From a virus: a stretch of 39,132 nucleotides of DNA. This document shows positions 1 through 39,132 of the stretch, one piece after another. The notes beneath the pieces were generated by a model. The model had not been told where the DNA came from, ran no database searches, and saw nothing but the letters and a program-made list of their open reading frames with translations. The stretch spans positions 1-39,132 of the IMG/VR virus record IMGVR_UViG_3300031576_000160; one strand, written 5' to 3'. The position numbers and the translations under genes were made by a program. Position 1 is the first letter of the stretch, and each line of letters begins with the position of its first letter.

Positions 1-158
1 GTAGCCGTAGCCGGAGCCGTAGCCGGAGCCGTAGCCGTAGCCGGAGCCGTCGCCGGAGCCGCCGCCGGAGCCGTCGCCGTAGCCGTAGCCGGAGCCGCTC
101 ACTCCGACCACTCCGGCACAGCCGTTATCGACTGCCGCGCCTTCTCGGTAACGTCGAT
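1..158. repeat. Terminal redundancy, left copy (circular closure)
   Basis: Bases 33-158 are identical to 39007-39132. Upstream of that, both copies continue in the same GGAGCC/GTAGCC/GTCGCC hexamer array, but the left copy has one extra GTAGCC unit. This is what a circular genome (or a terminally redundant, circularly permuted one) looks like when linearised inside a repeat by an assembler. The left copy contains the 3' end of the DUF6948-like gene and the beginning of the Gly-rich gene, which runs off the left edge and is complete in the right copy. Confidence 0.93.
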
Positions 159-1448: not shown

Positions 1449-2070
1449 TTACTCCTCCCGCGTAGTGCTTCTTTGCCCAATATCCCGCGACGACCGACAG
1501 CCACCGGTACTCATCCGCCAGGTCATCATGCTTTTCCAAATTATAGCCGCCGTCCTTCAAGTAGAGCGCGATACGGTCAATAACCTTCCAATCGTTGGCG
1601 CGCAGAGCGATCTGTTGAGCCGCCGTCTGCAACCGATGGTAAGGCATCTTTTTGCCCCGCTTCGCCTCGATCAAGCACGATCGTCCGCCGATCGATCCCC
1701 ACAAGTCGGGCGTACAGGCCCACCGCGTGGCCTCGACCAGGAGCGGCTTCTCTCCTCCCGCGAACTGGAAGCGCGTCTCGCGGAGGAACTTCCTGATCCC
1801 CTCGACCCGACCGGCGATGCGCTCGTCAGGAGCCTTCTTCGACTCCCGCCCGGACGCCAGGAATATAAGCCACTTATGCAGGGCGATTCCCTCCTCCCGG
1901 CCCTCCTCGGTGTAGAATGGATTGGTCTCGCTGATACCCATGTCCCGGCAAATCGCCGTGAACCCGGGGACCTCCTCGTCGCCCAGCCAATAGCGATGCT
2001 CGGTGGGGTCGAAACGGAAAATTGCGCCGGGGGAACCGCCCCAGCGCGGTCCTACTTTACGAGACGCCAT
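1438..2070 (-). CDS. PD-(D/E)XK nuclease, probable recombination exonuclease
   Basis: A 210-residue protein with the signature of the PD-(D/E)XK nuclease superfamily: an upstream acidic residue (LLVEATRW), then TPDLWG, then IEAKRG as the E-x-K element, and a following Q-x-x-A-Q motif. It directly follows the Bet/RecT gene with a 14-base overlap. By analogy with lambda Red, the pair probably forms a 5'-3' exonuclease plus single-strand annealing protein acting on phage DNA ends in the cytoplasm. The start at MASRKV (2070) is preferred because a longer in-frame N-terminus is Arg/Ser-rich and lies over recT. The exact Pfam family is uncertain. Confidence 0.85.
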   Translation of the reverse strand: MASRKVGPRWGGSPGAIFRFDPTEHRYWLGDEEVPGFTAICRDMGISETNPFYTEEGREEGIALHKWLIFLASGRESKKAPDERIAGRVEGIRKFLRETRFQFAGGEKPLLVEATRWACTPDLWGSIGGRSCLIEAKRGKKMPYHRLQTAAQQIALRANDWKVIDRIALYLKDGGYNLEKHDDLADEYRWLSVVAGYWAKKHYAGGVNGK

Positions 2071-2914
2071 CTTTGTTGGTTCTGCTGTCGCCGCACCAGG
2101 TGACGAACTCCTCATAGACCTGGGCGGCCATACGCCGCGTTCCATCGAGCCCGTACTTATTTTTGAGATGCTCCTTGACCTCCGCGTCTGTCTTCTGCGC
2201 CCCACGCCAAATAGCAAAAGCGCGTTTGCCCTGCTTCTCGGTGATGAACTGCTCCGCAGCGTCCGATCCGCACTTGTCATTCGTGTCGTCCGCGCCGTCC
2301 TCTGGGCCGCTGACCGGGCTCTGCGCCGACGCGCCCGCGCGCGCCGCTCCGGTTGGGTTCTCCTCCTGCCCCATCTCCTCGAACGTACAGACGCCCGACA
2401 TCTCCGCAGGGAACGCCCGCCGCAGGGCCAACGCCTCGGCGCACTTGGCGATCATGACGTGCGGCATCTTCGCCCACATCGTGTTCGGTTTACCGTCCTT
2501 CGTCCGCCCAGCGTACTCCTCTAAGAACGCCGTAGCCCCGCTCTCGTGCCATTCCCCGCCCGCCAGCTTCTTGACGTAGGCCGTAGCGGAGACGATCCCG
2601 CCCTTGTCGTCGTATGTGTAGGTGGGCTCTTTTCCGGGCGCGTATTTTCCCGTGCGCTCCGCGATCAGCCGGTACCCGTCTATTCCAGTTTGTATGGCCA
2701 TCACCTCTCGGTTGTCCGCCTTCGACCACCGCTTGACCGCGTGGATCTGTTTCAAGAGCGGATCGAGTCCCGTCCGCTTTGCCGTGTACAGGAACAGTTT
2801 GAGCTCGTTGTCCGTCGTGCCCTTTGCGACCGTCTGCTTGATGAGGTCGATCTGCTCCCGCCCGAACTCCTGAGGTACGATCTCCCGTCCCGTCCTCTCC
2901 TCGACTTGCTCCAT
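2057..2914 (-). CDS. bet: Bet/RecT-family single-strand annealing protein
   Basis: A 285-residue protein of the lambda Bet type of the RecT superfamily. Diagnostic segments are QTGIDGYRLIAERTGKY near residue 75 and MPHVMIAKCAEALALRRAFP near residue 150. These proteins promote annealing of complementary single strands in phage recombination and replication. The C-terminal 80 residues are variable and Ala/Gly-rich. The start at 2914 has a GGAGG site five bases upstream. The gene heads the recombination operon and is preceded by an unusual structured leader (2915-3064) with a promoter, a terminator and alternative hairpins. It overlaps the exonuclease gene by 14 bases. Confidence 0.93.
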   Translation of the reverse strand: MEQVEERTGREIVPQEFGREQIDLIKQTVAKGTTDNELKLFLYTAKRTGLDPLLKQIHAVKRWSKADNREVMAIQTGIDGYRLIAERTGKYAPGKEPTYTYDDKGGIVSATAYVKKLAGGEWHESGATAFLEEYAGRTKDGKPNTMWAKMPHVMIAKCAEALALRRAFPAEMSGVCTFEEMGQEENPTGAARAGASAQSPVSGPEDGADDTNDKCGSDAAEQFITEKQGKRAFAIWRGAQKTDAEVKEHLKNKYGLDGTRRMAAQVYEEFVTWCGDSRTNKDGVS

Positions 2915-2948
2915 CCCGTCCTCCCGCGCTTGCGCGCAAAATGAAGAG

Positions 2949-2998
2949 GCCCCCAGTGTGATGAGCGCGGGGCTGTTGGCCTAGCGACTCCTGGGGGC
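2949..2998 (-). promoter_or_regulatory. Leader hairpin 2 upstream of bet, alternative pairing partner
   Basis: A perfect 8-base inverted repeat (GCCCCCAG 2998-2991 with CTGGGGGC 2956-2949, minus-strand sense) closes a 34-base loop. The 3' part of the loop (2972-2958) can instead pair with 3030-3015, through GTGATGAG with CTCATCAC plus CGGGG with CCCCG. That pairing competes with both this hairpin and the upstream terminator hairpin. The element lies between the HTH gene and bet and looks like an attenuator or RNA switch. The structure is visible; the function is inferred. Confidence 0.55.
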
Positions 2999-3002
2999 AC
3001 TC

Positions 3003-3035
3003 AAAATAGAAAACCCCCGCCACTCATCACGGGGG
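3003..3035 (-). terminator. Intrinsic terminator upstream of bet
   Basis: The minus-strand sequence has CCCCCG (3035-3030), a 10-base loop, CGGGGG (3019-3014) and then TTTTCTATTTT (3013-3003). This fits a rho-independent terminator for transcripts coming through the HTH gene. A predicted promoter (-10 at 3042-3037) would start transcription at about 3030, inside the hairpin, so RNA from that promoter would lack the 5' arm and escape termination. Confidence 0.65.
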
Positions 3036-3036
3036 C

Positions 3037-3067
3037 ATTCTACCATAGAACGGGGGCGGATTGTCTA
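3037..3067 (-). promoter_or_regulatory. Extended -10 promoter for the bet operon
   Basis: The minus strand has TAGACA (-35, 3067-3062), a 19-base spacer ending in TGG, and TAGAAT (-10, 3042-3037). It shares the TGn-extended -10 layout with the promoters at 38829, 37482, 30358 and 27022. The -35 overlaps the stop codon of the HTH gene. A GTG begins six bases after the -10 and opens a 9-codon leader frame ending at 3001-3003. No start-site data are available, so this is a prediction. Confidence 0.5.
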
Positions 3068-3235
3068 GCGGACCATGATGCCCATATCCTCCAACCGTCG
3101 GAGGCTCAGTCCGCGCGGTTCTTCGTGGCCCTTGAGCCAACGGTTGACCGTCTTGAAGGATACGCCGATCCCATGCGCCGCGCTCTCCTGGCTCCCCATC
3201 TTCTCGACGTACTGCTTGAGCGTGATCTTCTTCAT
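3065..3235 (-). CDS. Small Cro/XRE-like HTH regulator
   Basis: A 56-residue protein starting MKKITLKQYVEKMG. The segment SAAHGIGVSFKTVNRWLKG fits helix-turn-helix DNA-binding proteins of the Cro/XRE type, with helix 2 at about residues 19-25 and the recognition helix at about 28-35. The ATG overlaps the stop of the upstream gene (ATGA). It is the only transcription-factor-like protein in the genome, and it lies directly in front of the bet promoter/terminator region, so control of that switch is an obvious but unproven role. Confidence 0.75.
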   Translation of the reverse strand: MKKITLKQYVEKMGSQESAAHGIGVSFKTVNRWLKGHEEPRGLSLRRLEDMGIMVR

Positions 3236-3459
3236 GGCGTTGCTTCCTCCATCTGTTCCGCGCGGTCGAAGGCATCATCGCCGCCTAAGTCGATATCGAG
3301 CCCAGGCCGCAGGACCACGCGCCGAACCCGGCACCGCCCGCCCAGATCAGCGGCGACCTCCGCAAACCGCCGCGCGTCCCTCTCGCAATCGAAGCCGTAG
3401 CTGGTGGCCTTCGACCACGGGGTGTCCTTCGCCTTCACGATCACGATCCACTCGGTCAT
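3232..3459 (-). CDS. Small accessory protein, unknown function
   Basis: A 75-residue protein starting MTEWIVIVKAKD. It has a short beta strand at the N-terminus, an Arg/Ala-rich helix around residues 27-40 and an acidic C-terminus. It looks like a compact alpha/beta protein, and I recognise no family. Four-base ATGA overlaps on both sides place it firmly in the early operon, coupled to the HTH regulator downstream. It is the kind of small early protein that often targets host functions, but nothing in the sequence shows this. Confidence 0.65.
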   Translation of the reverse strand: MTEWIVIVKAKDTPWSKATSYGFDCERDARRFAEVAADLGGRCRVRRVVLRPGLDIDLGGDDAFDRAEQMEEATP

Positions 3460-5113: not shown

Positions 5114-5186
5114 CCTCCCTCCCGGTCTGCCTCGTCAGACGGCGGGCGACCATTCCCGCCATGACGCCCCCGCAGGGGCGTTTCGG
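5114..5186 (-). other. GC-rich hairpin between DUF932 gene and next gene
   Basis: ACGCCCC (5164-5170) and GGGGCGT (5175-5181) form a 7-base stem with a tetraloop directly after the DUF932 stop. It is not followed by a T tract on the minus strand, so it is more likely an RNA-stabilising or processing element than an efficient terminator. The rest of the gap holds only the ribosome binding site of the next gene. Confidence 0.4.
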
Positions 5187-6170
5187 CTATCCCTTGAGCT
5201 TCCCGCCGACCAAGTCGAAGGCCGTGTCCCAAGCCCTCTGCTTGAGCTTCGCGCCCGATCCGAACAGCAGAGACGTTGCCCGCCCCTCCTCCTTGTCCCC
5301 CTTGCTCGACCGCGCATAATCGACGTACTCCGCAACCGCGTTAAACGCTCCCCAGGCCGTATGCTTCACGCCCGGCAGGTCGTTCCCCCGGCCCTTCTCG
5401 AACAGCGCGCCGATCTCGTTGACGATGTTCTGCGTCCGGGTGGTCAGGGCCTTCGCCTCGTCCGCCGGGATGATCCCGCACCCGCGCAGGAACTCCCGCC
5501 ACGCCTCGCCCCCCATCTTCGCCCCGGTCATCGCCCGCGCGGCCTCCCCGAACGCCTCGAACCGCTGATGGACGATTCCCAGGCCATGAGCAACGTCCGC
5601 GACCTTGAGCCCCATGTTGACCGTATGCCGCACCGTCTGCCGCTCGGCACCGGCCTCCAGCGCGACGTTGAGCGTGTTCTGGCAGACAACCCTGATCGGA
5701 GTGAACAGCATCGCCACCGCCGAGGACGCATCGTGCGTGTTGGTGAGGAGGAGGTACTTCTCCGTCACGTCCTGCTTGGTGACCACGATCTCGCCGGGGA
5801 GCTTCGCAAGAATCCAGACCCGCTCTCCCTGACCCAGGGCACCGGCGGTATGGTAGATCGCCTCCTTGGACCCCACCACGGCATCAAAGAAGCTGAACGC
5901 CTCCTTGTTCTGCAGGGGCCGGTAGACCTCCCCCACGCTCCCCAAGATCGAGCGGTTGTCCTCGCGCACCGTCGCGTAGCGGCCGGGGATCATCCGCCCG
6001 TCTTTCAGGTAGATGGGCTCCTTGGTGACCCGCCAGTCCAGACCCGCCGCCGCGATCGCCTCCGCCGCCGTCGCGGCCTTCTCCAGCTTCGTGCCCAGGC
6101 CGTGCCAGGGCTTCTCGCCCGTGTACATCATCGCCGGTTTTCCCTTCGTCTCGCTCAGGTTGTGCGCCAT
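5187..6170 (-). CDS. DUF932 phage/plasmid-like protein
   Basis: A 327-residue protein of the phage/plasmid-like DUF932 family (TIGR03299 type). The N-terminal signature MAHNLSETKGKPAMMYTGE followed by PWHGLG is diagnostic, as is VCQNTLNVAL in the middle. Members occur widely in phages and plasmids; the biochemical role is not established. The length is normal for the family. It is the first gene of the early operon, 33 bases downstream of the best sigma70-like promoter in the genome (TATAAT at 6203-6208), so early and strong expression is expected. Confidence 0.9.
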   Translation of the reverse strand: MAHNLSETKGKPAMMYTGEKPWHGLGTKLEKAATAAEAIAAAGLDWRVTKEPIYLKDGRMIPGRYATVREDNRSILGSVGEVYRPLQNKEAFSFFDAVVGSKEAIYHTAGALGQGERVWILAKLPGEIVVTKQDVTEKYLLLTNTHDASSAVAMLFTPIRVVCQNTLNVALEAGAERQTVRHTVNMGLKVADVAHGLGIVHQRFEAFGEAARAMTGAKMGGEAWREFLRGCGIIPADEAKALTTRTQNIVNEIGALFEKGRGNDLPGVKHTAWGAFNAVAEYVDYARSSKGDKEEGRATSLLFGSGAKLKQRAWDTAFDLVGGKLKG

Positions 6171-33966: not shown

Positions 33967-34724
33967 TCGCCCTCATTTTCTCTATCGCGTCTGGCCCGGG
34001 AAGAACCCGCCCGATCCCTTTGGCCCACGGCTTCCCGTCCCGCCGGCGCGCGTACACCGATTGAAGCTCGAACAGTGTGAGCGCCTGCATCCAGTCCGTC
34101 TCATTTTTGAATTGGAGGACTATATAATTGTTCTCCTCTCCCAACTCCTCCGCGAACGTAACCGCGCCCGGAGAGCCCCCCCCCCCCCCCCCCCCCCCCG
34201 CCCCCTTTTCTTCCTCCCCCCCCCCCCCCCCCCGCACCCCCACCCCCCCGCCGGCGACACCCCCCCCCCCCCTCGGCGATGAGCTTCTTGAGTTCCTCCT
34301 CATCGAACCCGACAATATCCATGTCCATATCGCCGTCGTTCAACTCGGCCACGAGCCCGCGAAGTTTCGCCTGGTCCCAATCTCCGCCATGTGCATTGGC
34401 CGCGATGTTCGCCGCTTTCTCTTTCTTCTCGTCCCAATCGACCTCTCTGTATCCGAACGGACCCCACGGCGTCTGTATCGTCCCGGCCGCAACCGTTCCC
34501 GTCTTATCCTTCGAGGCCTTCTTCGTGATCTCCCAATCCGGCTGGAGGTTCTTGACCCGCTGGTGTCCTCCCACGATCCGATTGGTCCGGACGTTCACCA
34601 CTACGCCGCCAAGGTCCCCGAACTCCCGCATGGCCTTGCCTAGGGCCGTCAGCTTCTTCTCGCTGATCCGCCTAGGGTTGAACGGGGCGGGCTTCAAGTC
34701 CCCGACCTTTTCACGCGCGCCCAT
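33956..34724 (-). pseudogene. Second ParB-domain protein, frame broken by poly-G tract
   Basis: The N-terminal 150 residues (PAPFNPRRISEKKLTALGKA, then VVNVRTNRIVGGHQRVKNL) are a ParB-like nuclease domain. The C-terminal 60 residues (FAEELGEENNYIVLQFKNET, then RVLPGPDAIEKM) form a domain I associate with such phage proteins. The two lie in frames that differ by one base and are separated by a poly-G/C tract (34176-34272). It may be an assembly or sequencing artefact, or a real slippery tract. Start at 34724 (MGAREK) is favoured by GGAGG spacing. Confidence 0.6.
34176..34272. repeat. Poly-C/G low-complexity tract
   Basis: On the plus strand there are runs of 24, 18 and 13 C separated by short interruptions (for example TTTTCTTCCT). 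No other part of the genome looks like this. It interrupts a ParB-domain gene. Runs this long are rarely stable in phage genomes and are typical failure points for base calling, so an artefact is likely, though a slippage-prone tract cannot be excluded. Confidence 0.9.
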
Positions 34725-37313: not shown

Positions 37314-37474
37314 CCTATCCTCCCCTTGATCTTCTTGGCCCAGTATCGCTCGATCCTGGCCCTGCCGCCGCAGGCGTTCGTGCAGTGGGATTGCCACGAT
37401 ACCTTCGGCGTGAACGCCTTACGGCACCGCGCGCAGACTCGACTACCCGCACTTCCCGCGTCCGTGTCTCCCAT
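37310..37474 (-). CDS. Zinc-finger microprotein upstream of parB
   Basis: A 54-residue protein starting MGDTDAGSAGSRVCARCRKA, followed by SHCTNACGG: a C-x2-C/C-x3-C zinc finger with a basic tail (RIERYWAKKIKGRIG). No ribosome binding site is visible, but a promoter -10 box lies seven bases upstream of the ATG, so it may be read from a leaderless mRNA. The stop overlaps the ParB start (ATGA), so translation of ParB probably depends on it. Confidence 0.65.
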   Translation of the reverse strand: MGDTDAGSAGSRVCARCRKAFTPKVSWQSHCTNACGGRARIERYWAKKIKGRIG

Positions 37475-37511
37475 TGGCGTTATTATGCCACTATACGGTG
37501 GCGTTAATCAA
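37475..37511 (-). promoter_or_regulatory. parB-operon promoter with operator-like repeats
   Basis: The minus strand has TTGATT (-35, 37511-37506), an 18-base spacer ending in TGG and CATAAT (-10, 37487-37482). An inverted repeat GCCAC-N6-GTGGC (37487-37502) covers the spacer. Two direct copies of TAACGCCA lie at 37506-37499 and 37482-37475. These could be repressor or ParB operator sites. The ATG starts seven bases after the -10. Confidence 0.55.
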
Positions 37512-38411: not shown

Positions 38412-38822
38412 TCAACGCCTAACGGCTGTCGCGTTCCGTAAGACCGAGCTTGCCCGTGTCTCTGGGATACTGGGGGTCGCACCCCGCCTGCCCATATCTG
38501 GTACGCACTCACGCGCTTGGATCTTGAACCCGGGCCCAGGGCAGAACGCCGTCTGCTCTGAGCGCAGGATCACGAACACCACGCGCGGATTATTCCTAGC
38601 AAGCCGCTCCGCCTCTGCCTTCGCGGACGCGAAGTTAAAGTGCGCGACACGCGGACGCTGTCCGCTCGATGACCGCCACACCATCCAGAACGGGCGGACC
38701 TGATCGGGACCAAGGAAGCCGATGCCGCGATCTTTGGAAATAAAAATCCCCTCCTGCGTGCGAGCCAAGAAAACTGCTTCCGGCTCAGAAGGGGTTGAAA
38801 TCTTGGTTTTCTTATCTCGCAC
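38412..38822 (-). CDS. Conserved accessory protein (RPFWMVWR type)
   Basis: A 136-residue protein if it starts at the GTG 38822 (MRDKKTKISTPSEPEA). RPFWMVWRSSSGQRPRVAHF and AKAEAERLARNNPRVVFVIL match a type of small phage protein I have seen often; function unknown. The open frame extends to an ATG at 38903 that overlaps the Gly-rich gene stop (ATGA). That extension is Arg-rich and lies over a strong promoter, so the GTG six bases after the -10 is favoured. A terminator hairpin lies inside codons 10-25. Confidence 0.6.
   Translation of the reverse strand: MRDKKTKISTPSEPEAVFLARTQEGIFISKDRGIGFLGPDQVRPFWMVWRSSSGQRPRVAHFNFASAKAEAERLARNNPRVVFVILRSEQTAFCPGPGFKIQARECVPDMGRRGATPSIPETRASSVLRNATAVRR
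38737..38794 (-). terminator. Intrinsic terminator inside the 5' part of the 38412 gene
   Basis: The minus strand has CCCCTTCTG (38794-38786) pairing with CAGGAGGGG (38756-38748), a 9-base stem with one G-U pair. An inner GAGCC/GGCTC stem lies in the loop, and ATTTTTATTTCC follows. The mismatch is tolerable only on the minus strand (G-U rather than C-A), supporting minus-strand function. It lies about 25 bases after the start of the promoter at 38858. Confidence 0.62.
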
Positions 38823-38828
38823 GGTCCG

Positions 38829-38858
38829 ATTATTCCAAACCATCCCGCAGGATGTCAA
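38829..38858 (-). promoter_or_regulatory. Extended -10 promoter upstream of the 38412 gene
   Basis: The minus strand has TTGACA (perfect -35, 38858-38853), an 18-base spacer ending in TGG and AATAAT (-10, 38834-38829). A GTG (38822) begins six bases after the -10. Perfect -35, five of six -10 positions and the TGn extension make this one of the best promoters in the genome. Confidence 0.62.
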
Positions 38859-38899
38859 GAGCGGACGCGGCCGAATCCGCCCGACCGCGCCCGCCTCGA

Positions 38900-39076
38900 T
38901 CATTTTCCGTCGCCGTAGCCGGAGCCGTAGCCGTAGCCGTAGCCGGAGCCGTCGCCGGAGCCGTCGCCGGAGCCGTCGCCGTAGCCGTAGCCGGAGCCGT
39001 AGCCGGAGCCGTAGCCGGAGCCGTCGCCGGAGCCGCCGCCGGAGCCGTCGCCGTAGCCGTAGCCGGAGCCGCTCAC
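38900..39076 (-). CDS. Gly-rich repeat protein (G-[SYD] dipeptides)
   Basis: A 58-residue protein starting with GTG that consists almost only of Gly-Ser, Gly-Tyr and Gly-Asp dipeptides and ends GYGDGK. Its GTG overlaps the DUF6948-like stop (GTGA). Gly-rich tracts next to DUF6948-like genes occur in other phages (from memory). It is encoded by imperfect hexamers GGCTAC, GGCTCC and GGCGAC, so slippage by whole hexamers keeps the frame. No signal peptide; the function is unknown. Confidence 0.6.
   Translation of the reverse strand: MSGSGYGYGDGSGGGSGDGSGYGSGYGSGYGYGDGSGDGSGDGSGYGYGYGSGYGDGK
38907..39070. repeat. Hexanucleotide repeat array
   Basis: About 27 copies of G(G/T/C)(A/C)GCC hexamers, coding for the Gly-rich protein on the minus strand. 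The same array continues at 1-96 in the left terminal copy. The two copies differ by one unit (an additional GTAGCC in the left copy), an indication of copy-number variation or assembly collapse. Confidence 0.9.
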
Positions 39077-39132
39077 TCCGACCACTCCGGCACAGCCGTT
39101 ATCGACTGCCGCGCCTTCTCGGTAACGTCGAT
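38975..39132. repeat. Terminal redundancy, right copy
   Basis: The counterpart of 1-158: bases 39007-39132 equal 33-158 exactly. The right copy contains the complete Gly-rich gene and repeats the last 60 bases of the DUF6948-like gene. It shows that the molecule is circular or circularly permuted. Confidence 0.93.

Follow-up and report, generated by a model that had tools for sequence, protein, structure and literature searches.

The window analysed here, that is, the whole stretch of DNA, is the virus record IMGVR_UViG_3300031576_000160 from IMG/VR (positions 1 to 39,132; 39,132 bases). The same stretch of about 158 bases, which includes a tandem repeat of the GGCTCCGGCTACGG type, is found at both ends of the window (1-158 and 38975-39132), and the record therefore closes as a circular genome of approximately 39.0 kb. 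All genes discussed are encoded by the minus strand. An upstream unit begins with a DUF932 gene (6170-5187), continues with several small genes and ends with the gene for a 56-residue HTH protein. It is followed by a leader, by the bet/RecT gene (2914-2057) and by exonuclease-like genes. The genes on either side of the leader are:

3066 to 3235, minus strand: 56-aa HTH protein (HTH_3/Cro-like), encoded at the end of the upstream unit
2057 to 2914, minus strand: bet, RecT-family ssDNA annealing protein (Pfam PF03837, E 6e-29; PHROG 2780)

Directly 3' of the DUF932 gene, a Type II hammerhead ribozyme is located on the minus strand at 5121-5188 (Rfam RF02276, 55.3 bits with a gathering threshold of 37). 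The operon that contains this ribozyme runs in the direction of bet, and the early message could be cut there. Elsewhere in the window, at 34176-34279, about 100 bases that are nearly pure G on the minus strand break a gene whose frame looks sensible on either side. This run is probably a sequencing or assembly artefact.

The leader of bet, referred to below as copy 1, contains the following elements:

3062 to 3067, minus strand: -35-like TAGACA (5/6 consensus match), overlapping the HTH stop codon
3037 to 3045, minus strand: TGn-extended -10 TGGTAGAAT (hexamer TAGAAT; consensus match)
3007 to 3042, minus strand: putative terminator T1, segments 1:2 CCCCCG/CGGGGG with outer pairs TAGAA/TTCTA (stem -25.6, loop of 8)
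3015 to 3030, minus strand: arm A, GTGATGAGTGGCGGGG, which starts at +1 and holds most of segment 2
2991 to 2998, minus strand: arm B, GCCCCCAG, identical to segment 3
2958 to 2972, minus strand: arm A', CCCCGCGCTCATCAC, which can pair with A or within the B:B' hairpin
2949 to 2956, minus strand: arm B', CTGGGGGC, identical to segment 4 and located one base after A'
2938 to 2948, minus strand: U-rich tail CTCTTCATTTT of the putative terminator T2 (B:B')

The promoter of copy 1 thus reads TAGACA-19-TAGAAT with a TG extension, the spacer of 19 bp being long. When the last T of the -10 hexamer is counted as -7, the predicted +1 is position 3030. It should be noted that the promoters and start sites considered here are matches to the sigma-70 consensus, the rules of which are assumed for the host. 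An earlier, sequence-only reading of this leader had listed a promoter, a terminator, an 8-base hairpin and a third pairing, and all four are present at the positions it gave. Two long ORFs that overlap the leader (177 and 82 aa) were dismissed, as their codon use is non-coding.

T1 straddles the predicted start site. Its segment 1 (CCCCCG, 3035-3030), which forms the 5' arm, ends at position 3030, and its segment 2 (CGGGGG, 3019-3014) completes an inner G+C stem that is followed by TTTTCTATTTT, with the U-rich run at 3013-3003. In the outer stem, UUCUA pairs with the TAGAA of the -10 element, and the complete stem (3042-3007) is longer than had been claimed. Judged by sequence and fold, T1 has the properties of an intrinsic terminator, namely a G+C-rich stem, a short loop and a U-run. 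The view that RNA from the promoter would lack the 5' arm of this terminator is borne out, because the predicted start lies inside it. The 8-base hairpin (2998-2991 with 2956-2949) also proved to be terminator-like itself, being followed by a U-rich tail that had not been pointed out. This hairpin, T2 (2998-2949), has an energy of -20.6 and a modest U-tract with 5 T among 8 tail positions. A G+C-rich stem with a U-run directly after it is found by the same reckoning both in T2 and in the corresponding hairpin of a second copy described below; the loops of these two hairpins are long (34 and 29 nt, respectively), with folds of their own inside.

The third pairing (3030-3015 with 2972-2958) had been thought to exclude both hairpins. 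It indeed shares bases with T1, but none with the 8-base hairpin. Instead, it crosses the latter, and the two compete for A', which pairs in the interior of that hairpin as well. The outermost part of this pairing, which we call the clamp, joins the +1 arm GUGAUGAG (3030-3023) to CUCAUCAC (2965-2958). The leader can therefore be described as four runs (1, 3035-3030; 2, 3019-3014; 3, 2998-2991; 4, 2956-2949) that combine either as 1:2 plus 3:4, or as 2:3 plus the clamp. Two U-tailed hairpins within 126 nt were obtained in only 5 of 1000 shuffles, and among all U-tailed hairpins of the window's coding strand, T1 ranks second in strength. A helix as strong as the observed one that begins exactly at +1 was found in 2 of 2000 shuffles for copy 1 and in 0 of 2000 for the second copy. 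The plain MFE z-scores lie between -1.4 and -2.7, which is modest, and the fold energy alone is therefore insufficient to single out this region.

The dependence of the fold on the start site was computed by partition-function folding of RNAs that share a 3' end at 2938 and differ in their 5' end. For starts from 3046 to 3033, T2 forms with a probability of 0.82-1.00, as does T1 wherever its 5' arm is present (0.82-1.00), and in the complete read-through RNA from 3235 the probabilities of both T1 and T2 are near 1. With a start at 3031, the clamp has a probability of 0.87 and T2 of 0.04; with the predicted start at 3030, these values are 0.92 and 0.02. Moving the start to 3029 lowers the clamp probability to 0.03. 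The folds of RNAs started upstream and at 3030 thus differ in the way that had been proposed. During elongation from 3030, segment 2 takes segment 3 in a G5:C5 hairpin before segment 4 exists, and the GUGAUGAG/CUCAUCAC clamp closes once position 2958 is reached. The forced states differ by about 2 kcal/mol in copy 1 and by under 1 in the second copy, which is no more than the error of the folding energies, and the exact probabilities are therefore not to be leaned on. Moreover, some start-dependent U-tailed hairpin appears in 3.8% of the shuffles of the copy 1 region. On these computed folds, copy 1 would be a four-segment attenuator, with 1:2 and 3:4 paired in read-through RNA, and 2:3 and the clamp paired in promoter RNA.

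We consider it about an even chance that copy 1 acts as a start-site-gated transcription attenuator that insulates bet from read-through. Segment 1 lies upstream of +1, and the choice of start site would decide whether it is present in the RNA. RNA arriving from the upstream genes would fold as 1:2 (T1) and then as 3:4 (T2), so that RNA polymerase would meet two successive U-tailed hairpins before bet and stop there. RNA begun at 3030 would lack segment 1; segment 2 would then take segment 3 (G5:C5), GUGAUGAG would clamp CUCAUCAC, and neither terminator would form. Promoter RNA would be exempt from the stops because segment 1 is missing and the clamp is present, and polymerase started at 3030 would pass. 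In this way, the recombination operon (bet and the exonuclease-like genes) would be insulated from the upstream operon and run by its own promoter. The suggestion that the downstream fold further controls bet can accordingly be extended, since the most plausible reading of this fold is a second terminator, which would likewise be off in promoter RNA. The local HTH protein had been named as a natural regulator, and this idea is unsupported: a perfect 5-3-5 palindrome, TTCTATGGTAGAA, covers the -10 of copy 1, but it occurs once in the window, where no second operator copy was found even at 3 mismatches.

The same layout recurs on the same strand at 38858-38738 (copy 2), with letters that cannot be aligned to those of copy 1:

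38853 to 38858, minus strand: -35 TTGACA (6/6 consensus match)
38829 to 38837, minus strand: extended -10 TGGAATAAT (consensus match), with a predicted +1 at 38822
38806 to 38822, minus strand: arm A, GTGCGAGATAAGAAAAC, from +1
38786 to 38794, minus strand: arm B, CCCCTTCTG
38758 to 38774, minus strand: arm A', GTTTTCTTGGCTCGCAC
38748 to 38756, minus strand: arm B', CAGGAGGGG, one base after A'
38738 to 38747, minus strand: U-tract ATTTTTATTT
38412 to 38822, minus strand: ORF of 136 aa from the GTG at +1, part of which matches PHROG 17352; its true start is uncertain

Both copies have a TGn-extended promoter, an arm A that begins at +1 and contains one small internal loop, the order A-B-A'-B' with one base between A' and B', and a U-tail. 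The RNA of copy 2 opens with GUGCGAGAUAAGAAAAC at 38822, the partner of which is GUUUUCUUGGCUCGCAC (38774-38758). Inside this clamp lies CCCCUUCUG (38794-38786), the partner of which is CAGGAGGGG (38756-38748), and AUUUUUAUUU comes next. The resulting terminator hairpin (38794-38748) has an energy of -18.8 and 7 T among 8 tail positions. The energies of clamp and terminator are almost equal (-23.6 versus -22.9), and the clamp is the first to form. In the fold computation, no start-site gate was seen in copy 2, where upstream RNA leaves the clamp intact; start-site gating therefore belongs to copy 1 only. Copy 2 would rather hold a balanced pair of clamp and terminator at +1 that some factor could tip either way, and its parts could serve the unit downstream as a regulated attenuator. 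This unit comprises a small ORF and a ParB-like gene, with packaging genes further on. The coding signal is weak at the start of the ORF at 38822-38412, and part of copy 2 may be coding. The copy 2 promoter is closely preceded by the GGCTCCGGCTACGG-type end repeat, and a very strong hairpin (38862-38899, minus strand), with about 19 pairs but no clear U-run, ends near its -35.

Common descent of the two copies was dropped as a sequence-based explanation, as their local alignment score was matched or beaten in 474 of 2000 shuffles, which is the chance level. The shared layout is therefore not merely copied sequence. The outer pairs GUG..GAG / CUC..CAC are common to both copies, and this may be due to chance or to a preference at +1.

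Several searches addressed how often such a layout arises. Sites at which the TGn -10 and the -35 both reach 5/6 or more occur twice in the window, as compared to 0.05 expected per shuffled window, and both carry the module. A promoter-blind descriptor applied to both strands picked out exactly copies 1 and 2, both of which lie at a predicted +1, whereas 30 shuffles yielded 0.3 hits per strand, with no hit at a -10. A promoter-anchored descriptor with looser thresholds gave 2 observed modules; among 400 shuffled genomes, 397 had none, 3 had one and not a single one had two. When all 1595 promoter-like sites of the window and of 20 further phage records are ranked, the two sites take places 1 and 2. 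In reading these counts, it should be borne in mind that the descriptor thresholds were shaped on copy 1 after it had been seen; because the descriptor was built on copy 1, it is copy 2 that provides independent evidence. The layout is unlikely to be a product of chance and has probably been selected, the main ground for this being its recurrence at a second promoter.

Descriptor scans revealed no comparable module in about 1.1 Mb of viral loci plus 0.75 Mb around RecT homologues, nor in the 20 other phage records. Likewise, no homologous leader was found in the IMG/VR scans and the genome scan, which included RecT relatives to 65% identity and portal relatives at about 45-50%. The nearest related phage found (G002, L258/L259) shares the gene order and has no such leader before recT. 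Among the matches listed in an IMG/VR scan with TTCTATGGTAGAAT, the hits were unrelated, as expected for 14 bases, and did not form a family. Rfam gave no match at gathering thresholds in 2880-3240 or 38650-38960, and a relaxed E-value gave only sub-threshold matches. GUGAUGAG resembles the hammerhead core CUGAUGAG; however, a hammerhead or other known RNA was rejected for the leader as there is no Rfam match.

Far more tentatively, both copies might exemplify a single sequence-independent layout at the two strongest promoters, in which a +1 clamp and the U-tailed hairpin that follows one base later are in competition. Termination would be set by the choice of start in copy 1 or by a phage or host factor in copy 2, the RNA would read its own 5' end, and the layout would define a new, start-anchored class of attenuators, which we regard as a doubtful but conceivable generalization. 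If the start-site-gated attenuator is real, the start position of RNA polymerase alone would decide termination, and an operon could be insulated from read-through without a protein while its own promoter remains fully active. Neither homology searches nor sequence-based searches for RNA families would reveal a layout without shared letters. Finding such switches would need promoter-anchored descriptor searches, which the present data show to be feasible and specific.

The layout may also be read in less elaborate ways. T1 could be an ordinary terminator that ends the upstream operon and overlaps the promoter for compactness, the other pairings being non-regulatory. A promoter beside a terminator is frequent in compact phage genomes, the window itself has a plain terminator (6304-6273) that is followed by a -10-like TATAAT ahead of the DUF932 gene, and the rank of T1 among the U-tailed hairpins fits this explanation. 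We nevertheless regard it as rather unlikely, since it accounts neither for the +1-anchored helix, nor for the second U-tailed hairpin, nor for the recurrence of the A-B-A'-B' order at the other strong promoter. The crossing of these arms, with A' and B' separated by one base in either copy, is what would be expected for an H-type pseudoknot (A:A' plus B:B'). Such an RNA would be about 85-93 nt long, with similar predicted lengths in both copies, a clamped 5' end and a 3' end at the U-tract, and it could act in trans or on RNA polymerase as the put RNA of HK022 does; putL offers a precedent for a 5'-paired RNA element just past a promoter (PMC9378689). This possibility seems improbable, because the B:B' hairpin takes up A' in its inner part in both copies, which favours mutual exclusion, because the joining loop of copy 2 measures only 11 nt, and because no Rfam family was found at gathering or relaxed thresholds.

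It is more improbable still that the clamp serves chiefly as a 5'-terminal stem that shields the end of the message and hides the +1 GUG, with leaderless translation competing. This idea leaves the U-tailed B:B' hairpins unexplained, and the weak coding signal with which the copy 2 ORF begins speaks against it. Stems at the 5' terminus are known to protect mRNA in the case of E. coli ompA. GUG opens both +1 sites, and a third promoter-like site (37490), with an ATG at +1/+2 (37474), fits the existence of leaderless messages. In copy 1, the GUG starts a nine-codon ORF without a Shine-Dalgarno sequence (GUG AUG AGU GGC GGG GGU UUU CUA UUU UGA). Leaderless translation from the +1 GUG of both copies may therefore play a part.

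As a start-site-gated attenuator, copy 1 resembles the trp-type attenuators in having segments 1 to 4 and a U-tailed intrinsic terminator, with 1:2 plus 3:4 (terminator) opposed to 2:3 (antiterminator), and this alternation is found in its computed folds. However, the position of the ribosome decides in trp-type attenuators, whereas in copy 1 the transcription start would decide, segment 1 being located upstream of +1; furthermore, the 1:2 pairing (T1) is itself a terminator. In place of a leader peptide with regulatory codons, copy 1 has only the nine-codon ORF, which contains no run of a single amino acid fitting the downstream genes. Copy 1 is therefore not a member of the trp type, as a ribosome-sensing leader peptide is absent. 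In IS10 and IS50, the element's own promoter starts within an inverted repeat, as in copy 1, and only read-through RNA folds the inhibitory stem. That stem hides a ribosome binding site, whereas the stems of copy 1 would end transcription, and copy 1 differs further in having a second, antitermination clamp from +1.

The bistable leaders of pT181 and pIP501, with antiterminator and terminator forms, are also similar, but they need an antisense RNA, which is RNAIII in the pIP501 attenuator (PMC4981023). Here, no opposing TGn-extended promoter was found in the window in a scan for plus-strand TGn -10 sites that reach 5/6 or more; a weaker one may be present. The nearest phage precedent for an early-transcript RNA that promotes read-through is HK022 put, the mechanism of which differs. 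This RNA of about 70 nt is located just past an early promoter, has its 5' end paired near +1, folds into two stem-loops, binds RNA polymerase and favours passage of distant terminators, and putL and putR are similar in sequence (PMC9378689). In the present case, by contrast, the terminator with which the pairing competes is a local one, and copies 1 and 2 have no sequence in common. The RNA from +1 is predicted to adopt a clamped, branched fold, which can be set beside the two stem-loops of put by description only.

Two minor observations concern other parts of the window. The third promoter-like site, TGGCATAAT (37474-37500, minus strand), has its expected start at the ATG that opens a Cys-containing ORF of 54 aa, which is a candidate leaderless message as judged from its sequence. 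Right before the Shine-Dalgarno sequence of bet, a GCGC-GCAA-GCGC hairpin with a GNRA tetraloop is present (2937-2926, minus strand), and a predicted extension of this hairpin pairs with part of the bet ribosome site.
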